NCBI RefSeq assembly: GCF_900141665.1
Contig: NZ_FQYI01000006.1
Location: 62,001-126,000, forward strand
Source: Cruoricaptor ignavus
Lineage (GTDB): Bacteria; Bacteroidota; Bacteroidia; Flavobacteriales; Weeksellaceae
Direction of reading: 5' to 3'
DNA length: 64,000 bases
Positions 46,598-53,583 of this stretch are shown here, in pieces (positions within the stretch are counted from its first letter, which is position 1; every line of letters begins with the position of its first letter). The notes beneath the pieces were generated by a model. The model was given only the letters and a program-made list of their open reading frames with translations, was not told the DNA's origin and ran no database searches. A program made the translations under genes and the position numbers.

Positions 46598-46963
46598 TTA
46601 AATTGCTGATGATTTCAGATATTTTAAGATGCTATTGATTTGCCGCAGAAGTTCGTGGATATTTCTAATAATTTCGTCAATATCTTCTTTATTGAAATAC
46701 CCTACTAAATTTCCATAAATTAAATGACTTTTCGTTTCAAAAGCTGAGCCTCGTGCAATTCGGTAAAATTGCGCCTTATCTTTGGTGCTGCTTCTGCCGA
46801 ATCCCTCTGCTATATTTGCTGAAATGCTTTCTCCACTGCGTCTGATTTGAGCGGTGAGTGCGTAATCCTCCTTTTTTGGAAGTTCATTGCTTAGGAAAAA
46901 AACACGCACACCGATTTCCATCGCCTTTTGCCAGACTGGCATCTGCGTAAAATCGGTGTACAT
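46598..46963 (-). CDS. Four-helix-bundle protein (23S rRNA intervening-sequence family)
   Basis: A 121-residue protein with the family signatures PVWQKAMEIGVRVFFLSNEL, ALTAQIRRSGESISANIAEG and AQFYRIARGSAFETKSHLIYG. The fold is four long helices. The family was first found in insertions of 23S rRNA; in Bacteroidota it is common as a free-standing gene of unknown role. The same fold is used by Avd of diversity-generating retroelements, but no reverse transcriptase or template repeat is seen here. It starts 42 bp downstream of glyA and ends 3 bp before a hexamer repeat. Confidence 0.88.
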   Translation of the reverse strand: MYTDFTQMPVWQKAMEIGVRVFFLSNELPKKEDYALTAQIRRSGESISANIAEGFGRSSTKDKAQFYRIARGSAFETKSHLIYGNLVGYFNKEDIDEIIRNIHELLRQINSILKYLKSSAI

Positions 46964-49516: not shown

Positions 49517-51175
49517 TTACGCTTCACAGCTGGTGCAAGTCACGAAATTCACCATCAGTTCTTTGGAAACGGATGAACTTCTCTGGTAATACAGCGTTTT
49601 TACGCCTTTCTTCCAGGCTTCGATGTAGAGGTAATTTACATCCTTCACAGGCATCGTGCTCGGTATCATCAGGTTTAGCGATTGTGCCTGATCGATGTAC
49701 TGCTGCCGCTGCGCTGCCTGAGAAATAATCTCCATCGGAGAAATTTCCTGGAAGGTTTTAAAAACCGCCTTTTCTTCATCAGTCAATCCCTGGACTTTCA
49801 TCACGGAACCGTGGTTCAGCATCACTTCCCGCCAGGTATCTTCATTATCCAGACCTTTTTCCTGAAGCAGTTTGGCGAGGTACTTATTCTTCCGCATAAA
49901 GTTTCCTTTCGCAAGGCCAGCCTTGTAATAGTTGGAGGCGAAAGGCTCAATTCCAGGCGAAGTTTGCCCTAAAATCGCTGAGCTGGAAGTAGTTGGCGCC
50001 ACGGCAAGCAGCGTGGTATTGCGCTTTCCGTAGCCCTTCAGAAGTTCCGGCTCACCGTAGATGTTGGCCAGTTCTGCCGAAGCCTGCTCAGCCTGTTCAC
50101 GAATGTGACGGAAAGCCCGAGCGTTGAATTGCGTGGCTTCGAAACTTTCGAACGGAATCATATTGCGTTGAAGGTAAGAGTGATATCCCAAAACGCCGAG
50201 CCCAAGCGCTCTGTGGCGCATTGCGAAATTCCTGGCGCCCTGCAGATAATAGTTGCCCTCCGTTTTTTCGATGAATTCCGAAAGCACGGCATCCAGGAAA
50301 TATATCGCAAGTTTCACGGCGTTGGTATCCTTCCATTCATCGAAAAGCTCCAGGTTCATCGATGAGAGGCAGCAAATGAAGGATTCTTCCGGAGTGGACG
50401 GCAGCATAATTTCTGAGCAAAGGTTGGAAGCGTTTACCGTAAGGCCTAAGTCCTTGTAAACCTGCGGTTTATTTCGGTTCACATTGTCTGTGAAGAAGAT
50501 GTACGGCAAGCCTTTTTGCTGACGGCTTTCCAGAACTCTCGCCCAGATTTTGCGCTTTTCGATATCGCCATCAATCATATCCTGCATCCAGTAATCCGGA
50601 ACGCAAACGCCGATGAACAGGTTCTGTATCGGGCTTCCGATGTCTTTGATGCTCAGGAATTCTTCGATATCACCGTGATCGATATCCAGGTAAGCTGCGA
50701 AAGCGCCGCGCCGAACGCCGCCCTGCGAAACTACATCCATAGAAGTATCGAAAAGTTTCATGAACGATACGGCGCCGGAAGATTTTCCGTTGTCCGTCAC
50801 CGCTGTTCCGCGGTGCCGAAGTTCACCGAAATACCCGGAAGTTCCGCCGCCGATTTTCGTCTGCATAATCACTTCGCCGAGCTTGTGCGTAATGCCTTCG
50901 ATGCTGTCCGGAACATGCACATTGAAGCAGGAAATCGGCAGGCCACGCTGCGTACCCATATTTGCCCAAACCGGCGACGAAAAGGAGATCCAGCCCTTGG
51001 TAATCATCTCTTCAAAGGCTGGCTGAAGCTCCGGTTTGTAGAGCCTTTTCGCCGCGGCAGTTGTGATGCGCTCTATCGCACCTTTCACGGTTTCACCCTT
51101 CAGCAGATAGCCACGGTTCAGCATCTGCTCAGACTCATCATTGAGCCACCAAATATCTGTGTTTTGTTCTTCCAT
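49517..51175 (-). CDS. nrdA: Class Ia ribonucleotide reductase, alpha (large) subunit
   Basis: Reduces ribonucleotides to deoxyribonucleotides with its beta partner NrdB. The 552-residue protein is compact: it begins near the catalytic barrel, so no N-terminal ATP-cone is present. It has PISCFNVHVPDS, NASNLCSEIMLPS holding the catalytic Cys of the NxCxE motif, CCLSSMNLELFDEW, and the usual C-terminal pair in TCTSCEA that accepts electrons from thioredoxin or glutaredoxin. The Cys in PISC would be one of the active-site redox pair. It starts 2 bp after the toxin stop, so the TA pair lies between it and nrdB. Confidence 0.96.
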   Translation of the reverse strand: MEEQNTDIWWLNDESEQMLNRGYLLKGETVKGAIERITTAAAKRLYKPELQPAFEEMITKGWISFSSPVWANMGTQRGLPISCFNVHVPDSIEGITHKLGEVIMQTKIGGGTSGYFGELRHRGTAVTDNGKSSGAVSFMKLFDTSMDVVSQGGVRRGAFAAYLDIDHGDIEEFLSIKDIGSPIQNLFIGVCVPDYWMQDMIDGDIEKRKIWARVLESRQQKGLPYIFFTDNVNRNKPQVYKDLGLTVNASNLCSEIMLPSTPEESFICCLSSMNLELFDEWKDTNAVKLAIYFLDAVLSEFIEKTEGNYYLQGARNFAMRHRALGLGVLGYHSYLQRNMIPFESFEATQFNARAFRHIREQAEQASAELANIYGEPELLKGYGKRNTTLLAVAPTTSSSAILGQTSPGIEPFASNYYKAGLAKGNFMRKNKYLAKLLQEKGLDNEDTWREVMLNHGSVMKVQGLTDEEKAVFKTFQEISPMEIISQAAQRQQYIDQAQSLNLMIPSTMPVKDVNYLYIEAWKKGVKTLYYQRSSSVSKELMVNFVTCTSCEA

Positions 51176-51177
51176 AG

Positions 51178-51600
51178 TTAAAATTTTCCAGATAAAAGCT
51201 CCCTGCTTGAAACCGTATGGTCTTGCAATTCTGTTAGAAGTCTCTTATCTCCTGTCCAAATTTTTGTATTTAGTTCTAATGCCAGAGCTAAAAACGGCGT
51301 ATCATCCTCATCAATTTCTTTTAATAAATGGTGCGCCCTTTTCCAGCTCTCCAAGCTTATTAGGTCTTCTGAAATTAAATTCACCGTGCTGAAAACTTCA
51401 CGGCAGATTAATTGCAGTTCGTCATCATCCAGTTTAGAATACTTTCTGATTTTTTCCGAATATCTGCTGAGTTCAGTTCTGATGAACTCTGGTGCAAAAA
51501 GCCGATACTCAGCATCAAAACTCAGCAGCATCGTGCCAATATCCGATGATGGATTCAGAAGCGCGCTGAAAATGATATTGGCATCTACAACTAGATTCAC
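51178..51600 (-). CDS. PIN-domain protein, probable VapC-like toxin
   Basis: A 140-residue PIN-domain protein. The quartet of acidic residues for Mg-dependent RNase activity is present: VDANIIFSALL (D6), an Asp/Glu in FIRTEL (about residue 43), DDTPFLALALEL (about 100) and WTGDKRLL (about 117). The start is a GTG at 51600 that overlaps the antitoxin stop by 4 bp, typical of type II TA operons. It lies inside the nrdB-nrdA unit, 2 bp before nrdA. Cellular target is unknown. Confidence 0.85.
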   Translation of the reverse strand: MNLVVDANIIFSALLNPSSDIGTMLLSFDAEYRLFAPEFIRTELSRYSEKIRKYSKLDDDELQLICREVFSTVNLISEDLISLESWKRAHHLLKEIDEDDTPFLALALELNTKIWTGDKRLLTELQDHTVSSRELLSGKF

Positions 51601-51800
51601 TGCAGAAATCTTTCACGGTTTTCCTGCCACCAGTGCCGTTTCAGTTCGTCAGCCAGCTCATTCACTTCAGTTTCAGAAGCTTTACTTTTTTTCAGTGTTT
51701 CCCTATATTTCAAAAAATTTACAACCTTCTGCAAACTCATAACATCAACATTATCAGAGACTTTCAGCAGAATTTCACCATTAGCCCTTTCGATTGTCAT
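51597..51800 (-). CDS. Probable antitoxin of the PIN-domain pair
   Basis: A 67-residue protein with a short N-terminal strand (ERANGEILLKVSDNVDV) and predicted C-terminal helices rich in charged residues with SEVNELADELKRHWW-like sequence (NELADELKRHWWQ). Position directly upstream of a PIN gene with a 4-bp overlap supports the call. I do not recognise its family; it is unlike common VapB. It starts 36 bp after the nrdB stop, so it is likely co-transcribed with nrdB. Confidence 0.75.
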   Translation of the reverse strand: MTIERANGEILLKVSDNVDVMSLQKVVNFLKYRETLKKSKASETEVNELADELKRHWWQENRERFLQ

Positions 51801-51836
51801 TTTTAAAGTTTTTTAGTTGAACTTTCTGCAATTTAC

Positions 51837-52811
51837 TCAAAACAAATCAAACGCAGTGATGCTCTTGTCGTGCTTCGTGTAGTCCACAGGTCTTTTCGCG
51901 AAGAAATCGTCCAGCGAGTTGGCGAAAACTTCTTCCTCGAACCACTTCATTGGCCTGTATTCTTCCGGCGAAACTTCGTAGCGTGGCTGCAGCCCGATTT
52001 TCTTCAGGGAATCATCTACCCGGAATTTCATAAAGTTCAGAAGATTTTCCTTCGTCAAATTCTCAATCTCTCCCATTTCAAAAATCCAGTCCAGGATTTC
52101 CCCTTCCACATCAATAGAATGGTCTATCAGCGTATAGATATCCTCAATGTCCGATTCAGAAAGCAATTCCGGCTGCTCTTCCCGAATTTTGTTGATAAGG
52201 TAAATGCCTGCATTGGCGTGGATTTGCTCATCCACGGAAGTCCACGCAATAATGTTGCTTACATTTTTCATATAGCCCTGAAACCTTGTGAATGACAGAA
52301 TGATGGCAAACTGCGAGAACAGCGATACATTTTCAATCAAGATGGAGAACAGCAGCAGGGATGATACATATTCCTTCGGCGTTGTGGAATTGGCGTGGCG
52401 AAGCGCATTGCTCAGGAAGTCTATGCGTTTTTTAATGGCCGGTATTTCCACCACTTTCAGGAATTCTTCGTTGTAGCCCAGCACTTCCAGCAAGCGGCTA
52501 TACGCTTCGGAATGGCGGAATTCGCATTCTGCGAAAGTTGCGCCAAGGCCGTTCAGCTCTGGCTTTGGCAGGTGGTTGTACAGATTTCCCCAGAAGGTTT
52601 TCACGGAAACCTCGATTTGTGCGATGGCAAGCAAAGCGTGCTTCACGGCATTCTTTTCGTGCGGCTGAAGCTGCGAGTGAAAATCCTGCACATCTGCAGT
52701 GAAATCCACTTCGGAATGCACCCAGAAGGATTTATTTATCGCCTCCACAAACTTCAGAACTTCCGGATATTCAAACGGCTTGTAGCTGATTCTTTTGTCA
52801 AAAATTCCCAT
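51837..52811 (-). CDS. nrdB: Class Ia ribonucleotide reductase, beta (radical) subunit
   Basis: The ferritin-like subunit that holds the di-iron/tyrosyl radical. The 324-residue protein begins MGIFDKRISYKPFEYPE at 52811. Metal ligands include the Glu and His in AECEFRHSEAYSRLLE, and the Tyr four residues after that His matches the radical Tyr. A further Glu lies in ILIENVSLFSQF and a second Glu-His pair in VDEQIHANAG. Since the radical Tyr is present it is of the Ia/Ib kind, not the Tyr-less Ic. A promoter-like element and a DnaA box are upstream. Confidence 0.96.
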   Translation of the reverse strand: MGIFDKRISYKPFEYPEVLKFVEAINKSFWVHSEVDFTADVQDFHSQLQPHEKNAVKHALLAIAQIEVSVKTFWGNLYNHLPKPELNGLGATFAECEFRHSEAYSRLLEVLGYNEEFLKVVEIPAIKKRIDFLSNALRHANSTTPKEYVSSLLLFSILIENVSLFSQFAIILSFTRFQGYMKNVSNIIAWTSVDEQIHANAGIYLINKIREEQPELLSESDIEDIYTLIDHSIDVEGEILDWIFEMGEIENLTKENLLNFMKFRVDDSLKKIGLQPRYEVSPEEYRPMKWFEEEVFANSLDDFFAKRPVDYTKHDKSITAFDLF

Positions 52812-52831
52812 AGTTTTCAGATGAATGTGAA

Positions 52832-52839
52832 CAAAAGTA
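52832..52839 (-). promoter_or_regulatory. Candidate -7 element (TACTTTTG) for nrdB
   Basis: A perfect TAnnTTTG match on the minus strand, 20 bp before the nrdB ATG. No TTG lies at the usual -33 spacing. The predicted leader would be about 15 nt. Confidence 0.5.
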
Positions 52840-52868
52840 ACCAAGATACTCCGATTGAGAAAAAGGAG

Positions 52869-52877
52869 TTATCCACA
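52869..52877 (+). promoter_or_regulatory. DnaA box, perfect consensus TTATCCACA
   Basis: The nonamer TTATCCACA matches the DnaA consensus exactly. It lies 58 bp upstream of the nrdB ATG and about 30 bp upstream of the candidate -7 element. DnaA is known to act at the nrdAB promoter of E. coli. A single site in 64 kb could also occur by chance. Confidence 0.55.
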
Positions 52878-52995
52878 AGGAACTGTAAGTGCTTAATTCT
52901 TAGCGACTTATAAAATATTAAGACTTCTAAGAGCCCTAAAATGAAATTTTGAATTAAACCAAGTTCTCAACTATCTGGTTTACAGTAACTTAAAA

Positions 52996-53583
52996 TTAAA
53001 CACTGCTTTTGCGCCATAGCGAAATAACATTCACAAATAGCAGCAACAGGCACAGAACGGCAAGCACCGCCCTCCGGGTAGCCTGCGTACGGTACCAACC
53101 AATCTCTTTTTCAGCACGGGCGTGTAACACCTGACCCAGGTCCTCGTAGCTGCGGACCTCGATAATAGGGTCGAGATTTCGGCTTACCATCGGATGCCGG
53201 GAAAGATACACCATATTTTTATTCCCTAAAAAGCCTGCAAGCCATAGTTCTCCACCGCTTTCGAAGCGGAGATACTCCATTCTGTAATGGTCGGGTCTTA
53301 TTTTTCCCAGGTGTATGACTGGCCCCGCCCCTACAGTATCGCGGCTGATCAGGTAAAAGTCTAGCGGCTGAGGGAGGCTGTTGATAACCTGTACAGAAAC
53401 ATCCTCATTACTGGGCTGTTTAAAAAAATCCTCGGCGAACTTCCAGGCAAAAAAAAGTATGGTAAGAGAAACTACTGCCCAACGGATAATCCTGAAAATC
53501 CTCGCCCGCCTCCCTTCCTTAAAAAACGAAAGCAGCAGCGAAAGGGAAAGCAGAACGAAAATTGTAAAAAGAATATATCCCAT
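52996..53583 (-). CDS. Hypothetical membrane protein
   Basis: A 195-residue protein that I do not recognise. Two N-terminal hydrophobic helices (ILFTIFVLLSLSLLLSFF and IIRWAVVSLTILFFAWKFAED) and one near the C-terminus (AVLAVLCLLLLFVNVISLW) enclose an extracytoplasmic part of about 100 residues. It lies 12 bp downstream of the alpha/beta hydrolase gene. Confidence 0.75.
   Translation of the reverse strand: MGYILFTIFVLLSLSLLLSFFKEGRRARIFRIIRWAVVSLTILFFAWKFAEDFFKQPSNEDVSVQVINSLPQPLDFYLISRDTVGAGPVIHLGKIRPDHYRMEYLRFESGGELWLAGFLGNKNMVYLSRHPMVSRNLDPIIEVRSYEDLGQVLHARAEKEIGWYRTQATRRAVLAVLCLLLLFVNVISLWRKSSV

Follow-up and report, generated by a model that had tools for sequence, protein, structure and literature searches.

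Why should two small genes that resemble a toxin-antitoxin (TA) module lie between the two subunit genes of ribonucleotide reductase, and does their place there matter? The question is raised by a 64,000-nucleotide stretch of DNA from Cruoricaptor ignavus, analysed here as a whole and referred to as the window. In it, nrdB, for the radical subunit of the class I enzyme (51837..52811, minus strand; 324 aa, ATG at 52811; PF00268, E 1.2e-68), is separated from nrdA, for the catalytic subunit (49517..51175, minus strand; 552 aa; PF02867, E 1.6e-108), by a gene for an antitoxin-like protein and a gene for a PIN-domain protein. The nrdA product also scores over the NCBIfam cut-off of TIGR02510 (NrdE-prime). 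From comparisons of sequence, I propose that the pair is probably a VapBC-like type II TA module of mobile origin, with an uncurated antitoxin, that landed in a permissive nrdB-nrdA junction.

Results and discussion

The initial annotation placed a PIN pair between nrdB and nrdA, with 36 bp on one side and 2 bp on the other, and all of this is exact to the base. Read from nrdB on the minus strand, a 36-bp spacer (51801..51836), which lacks the promoter-like element of the module's close relatives, leads to the antitoxin-like gene (51597..51800; 67 aa, an uncurated family, profiles A1/A5). The gene for the putative toxin, a PIN_2, VapC-like protein of 140 aa with a GTG start, follows (51178..51600), and its stop is parted from nrdA by 2 bp (51176-51177). 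The antitoxin stop and the PIN start share 4 nt, GTGA (51597..51600), a detail absent from that annotation. At 38.8%, the G+C content of the pair is to be compared with a mean of 46.8% (sd 4.4) for 48 open reading frames of the window, 3 of which are lower. Elsewhere in the window, a gene for a 23S rRNA intervening-sequence (four-helix bundle) protein (46598-46963; PF05635, E 1.1e-34) adjoins the serine hydroxymethyltransferase gene.

The assignment of the larger protein to PIN_2 is based on PF10130 (E 7.4e-31; 107.6 bits, cut-off 22.4). PF01850 is likewise over its cut-off, and TIGR00305 (putative TA toxin, PIN family) reaches 21.4 bits, under the curated cut-off of 29.15. All 23 PIN proteins that were aligned match PF10130, and in all 23, the C. 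ignavus protein included, residues D6, E43, D97, D100 and D118 are invariant; I take these to be the catalytic, metal-binding acidic positions of the PIN domain. The AlphaFold2 model (mean pLDDT 91.3, pTM 0.85) has as its top Foldseek matches PAE0151 (2fe1) and the VapC proteins of Shigella and of Rickettsia, and VIA superposes it on 2fe1 with Z 12.4 and rmsd 2.8 (120 aligned) and on 3zvk_C with Z 12.2 and rmsd 3.0 (128 aligned). Searched against PDB sequences, the PIN profile gave 0 matches at E 0.1. In the alignment, the protein is shorter near its C-terminus than its relatives, which counts against the preferred explanation. The protein may be toxic. A phage origin of the module was considered and rejected, as the phage matches amount to 2 records of one Halobacterium phage at 32% identity.

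No Pfam or NCBIfam model is over its cut-off for the 67-aa open reading frame, and the initial annotation was therefore right to call the antitoxin of a type not recognised. The same databases, searched with 28 members of the antitoxin family, returned scattered chance-level matches and nothing more, and PADLOC had no match at E 0.01 for either the antitoxin or the PIN protein. The attempt to name the antitoxin by Pfam, NCBIfam, PADLOC, PHROGs and PDB sequence searches was abandoned, with chance-level matches alone. The predicted fold has two helices after a beta hairpin, and confidence in it is moderate (pLDDT 84.7, pTM 0.49); the protein matched no curated RHH, AbrB, PHD or HTH family. No solved counterpart of the model was found by PDB sequence search, Foldseek or VIA, a further point against the preferred explanation; the one row that VIA gave, 5kx5_E, is unusable (Z 2.3, rmsd 12.9, 51 aligned). 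The putative antitoxin stands for an uncurated yet widespread Bacteroidota family.

Several traits are shared with VapBC: a PIN toxin with the acidic positions, a small antitoxin upstream, an overlapping bicistron, a patchy and mobile distribution, and a predicted PIN fold that matches VapC structures such as 3zvk, 5ecw and 3tnd. However, the C. ignavus antitoxin has no match to a curated antitoxin family or a solved structure, and the module has no promoter-like element of its own. Among PIN-associated antitoxin families found by gene neighbourhood, Makarova et al. (2009, PMC2701414) give COG2442/DUF433, COG2880, COG1753 and a truncated MerR, with COG2886 in a table; the present family is similarly a small PIN-linked partner found by gene neighbourhood, but no Pfam family presumed to correspond to those COGs appeared in the scans of the 28 members. 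The TASmania paper (PMC6504116) mentions TA modules inserted within operons, and the module described here is likewise embedded among genes of other function, with the difference that these are the two subunit genes of ribonucleotide reductase. A literature search at the level of abstracts returned no report of a TA or PIN insertion at nrd or reductase genes.

With the single antitoxin sequence as query, homologues were found in 5 of 149 relatives, and a profile search across the phylum detected 27 places in 16 of 395 genomes. The antitoxin gene is followed by a PIN match on its own strand at 22 of these 27 places, a few of the matches being in split frames; the exceptions are L233, L236, L238, L245 and L255. 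By eye, all that comes after the antitoxin at L233 and L238 is the beginning of a broken PIN gene, the picture to be expected when decay reaches a toxin ahead of its antitoxin. A scan of named genomes gave 28 antitoxin loci, mostly from Bacteroidota, with one from Calditrichaeota and one from a Chlorobiota MAG. A PIN match lies at most 150 nt away at 26 of them and is full length in 22, and the overlap is 4 nt in 21 of these full-length pairs and 1 nt in the remaining one. Such pairs, with the same order and overlap in many genomes, are more than chance. The neighbouring genes vary from locus to locus, and Runella sp. SP2 carries the pair, with an identical overlap, on its 11.3-kb mobilizable plasmid pSP2_3 (the genes are annotated there as 'hypothetical protein' and 'PIN domain-containing protein'). 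The module therefore travels from one site or replicon to another. In the family, 10 of 148 genomes have a PIN homologue, in all but C. ignavus outside the nrdB-nrdA gap. The low G+C content, the patchy spread of antitoxin (5/149) and PIN gene (10/148), the recurrence of the pair and the plasmid copy together argue for a mobile module that was captured by the junction. That no other genome of the same genus turned up in the searches counts against this explanation.

Among the 148 genomes of the family, nrdB was found in 141 and nrdA in 142, and the two are adjacent in 140, that of C. ignavus included. The comparison of their spacing among relatives, an idea that came with the initial annotation, was run, and the gap ranges from 23 to 2136 bp, with a median of 360 over 140 pairs and 661 in C. 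ignavus, these lengths being taken from match ends and thus up to about 25 nt too large in genomes in which the match to nrdA leaves out residue 1. Both the size and the content of the gap vary widely, also within genera. The PIN pair occupies it in C. ignavus alone among the 140, and no PIN match was found in the gap of the 139 other genomes. In these, 49 gaps hold a gene supported by a family or domain (one of them, in G017, assigned by eye), 53 exceed 150 bp and hold none, and 37 are short gaps with nothing in them. What the gap contains depends on the genus, with a family X1 in 19 genomes, X2 in 19, and X3 in 7 of the 8 genus-g17 genomes with the nrdB-nrdA pair. Single cases are a ThsB-like TIR protein (G149; PADLOC E 2e-110) and a TIR protein of PADLOC class PDC-S35 (G166; E 7e-78), both in g20 genomes (L062:165-884, minus strand, and L054:66-1025, plus strand), an HNH protein (G003), a deamidase-like protein (G032) and a thioesterase (G041).

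The small families have features of their own. Proteins of X1 (95-112 aa; L099:172-459, plus strand, and 18 other gaps) have 19 of their 24 family-wide matches inside the nrdB-nrdA gap and bear a weak likeness, below the cut-off, to ABM monooxygenases; X1 is a candidate reductase-linked small protein. For X2 (82-94 aa; L073:375-632, plus strand, and 18 other gaps) the figure is 20 of 26, and the matches span nine genera with no Pfam match. X3 is a 97-aa open reading frame directly after nrdB (L138:64-354, plus strand), again with no Pfam match. As X1 and X2 are tied to the junction, reductase-linked small genes may exist there. A short repeat, GCGAGCGAAGCGAGCG, is present in the gap regions of 30 of the 139 relatives and absent from the 64-kb window.

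As a control, other junctions were measured in 20-kb stretches from 20 genomes in each of the genera g26 and g20. In g26, nrdB-nrdA has the widest median gap, 354.5, among 7 conserved co-directional junctions (8 to 76.5 at the others); in g20, its median of 454.5 is second of 10, the others lying between -4 and 144 apart from one of 2634.5, the junction from nrdA to a gene for a 296-aa protein, which is so long because it contains other genes. Another family of the order has gaps of 20-141 bp in 25 of 27 pairs, and of 401 and 437 in the remaining two (27 of the 28 genomes with nrdB were used; in G607, which was left out, nrdA is far away). The nrdB-nrdA gap is thus among the most variable junctions tested in the family, and the junction is a permissive site that accepts many different small co-directional genes. 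A place unique to toxins, or selected for them, is rejected by the variable gap and the varied cargo. The initial view of the locus as a PIN-type toxin-antitoxin-like pair is upheld by PF10130 and by the recurrent pairs with the same overlap; the place itself is not exceptional, as the junction is variable and its cargo varied.

It was also claimed that the placement protects the module from loss, and this has no support beyond the geometry: the gap is variable, and relatives hold other cargo in it or none. I regard it as very unlikely that the position itself was selected, shielding the module from deletion and coupling it to dNTP synthesis. A careless deletion of the pair would indeed harm nrdA, only 2 bp downstream, and the module would depend on the nrdB promoter; however, gap size and content vary widely even within genera, the gap is short and empty in 37 of the 139 relatives, and elsewhere the module lies at unrelated places. 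Somewhat less improbable, though still poorly favoured, is a PIN protein recruited as a ribonuclease that controls nrd mRNA or dNTP supply, regulated by its small partner, with the place selected for that function. The tight packing, the presumed shared expression and the strong tie of X2 (20/26) and X1 (19/24) to the junction fit such a role, but in other places this pair adjoins unrelated genes, a plasmid also carries it, and it is found at nrd in 1 of 140 genomes.

Whether the module is transcribed from its own start was approached by means of the pattern TAnnTT[TC][GAC], which I take to be the Bacteroidota-type minus-7 element. The pattern was relaxed and set after inspection of the loci, which is held against the preferred explanation. 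Of 25 close relatives (the 28 loci minus L262 and L282, which have no PIN match, and the partial L284), 21 have it at a distance of 11 to 14 nt upstream of the antitoxin start, compared to 2 of 57 control open reading frames; in shuffled sequences, it occurred at that spacing in a mean of 0.57 of 25, with a maximum of 4. In 26 further, mostly more distant loci it was present at -11 to -14 in 1 and within 8-40 nt in 11, which also weighs against that explanation. A leaderless promoter as a general trait of the module was dropped on account of that 1 in 26 and kept for the close clade only.

In C. ignavus, no such pattern is present within 60 nt upstream of the antitoxin gene. The promoter-like element TACTTTTG (TAnnTTTG; 52832..52839, minus strand), a pattern match 28 nt before the nrdB start, is the sole exact element on the minus strand in 51100-53050. 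The initial annotation had noted no obvious promoter before nrdA, and this is borne out, with no Bacteroidota-type element within 8-40 nt and no sigma-70-like match directly upstream. In relatives, an element within 8-40 nt upstream of nrdA was found in 5 of 120, compared to 16 of 57 control open reading frames (19 of the 139 were dropped, there being no ATG near the match start). Scans for sigma-70-like promoters (5 found; shuffles 3.5, sd 2.1) and for terminator-like structures (3 found; shuffles 1.8, sd 1.1) were near chance. The suggestion that the pair is co-transcribed with nrdA agrees with these sequence patterns, which are its only support: nrdB has an element, and the antitoxin gene and nrdA have none. 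The patterns fit a single unit read from nrdB throughout the family, within which the C. ignavus module would have no start of its own. Since 2 bp part the PIN stop from the nrdA start, the two genes may plausibly be linked in translation.

Alternatively, the module could be a harmless, decaying passenger that was inserted by chance, has no promoter, is expressed at a low level and is heading to loss. The missing promoter-like element, the shorter C-terminal part of the PIN protein and the relatives with decayed PIN genes beside intact antitoxins point in this direction. However, both frames are open, neither the overlap nor any of the five acidic positions has been lost, and I consider this alternative unlikely.

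Conclusions

According to the explanation that I prefer, a mobile VapBC-like module captured by the junction, the antitoxin would bind and block the PIN ribonuclease, and free PIN protein would cut RNA, upon which growth would stop. Having lost its own promoter, the module would be read from that of nrdB, and owing to the 2-bp spacing, ribosomes that end the PIN gene could start nrdA. Its expression would thereby accompany that of ribonucleotide reductase and be coupled to it in translation, and the explanation requires no part for it in dNTP synthesis. A more far-reaching scenario seems doubtful to me: that the junction is a cargo slot for conflict genes (PIN TA, TIR, HNH) and reductase-linked small proteins, in which the TA module gave up its promoter and became tied transcriptionally and translationally to the reductase, so that the toxin supply follows dNTP synthesis and the balance of toxin and antitoxin is disturbed by any takeover of the operon, such as one by a phage.

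The wider finding is the junction itself, a variable cargo site inside an essential operon across a bacterial family. In addition, a widespread, unnamed antitoxin-like family of the Bacteroidota gains a clear partner, and the persistence of promoterless modules by riding on essential transcription units becomes testable.
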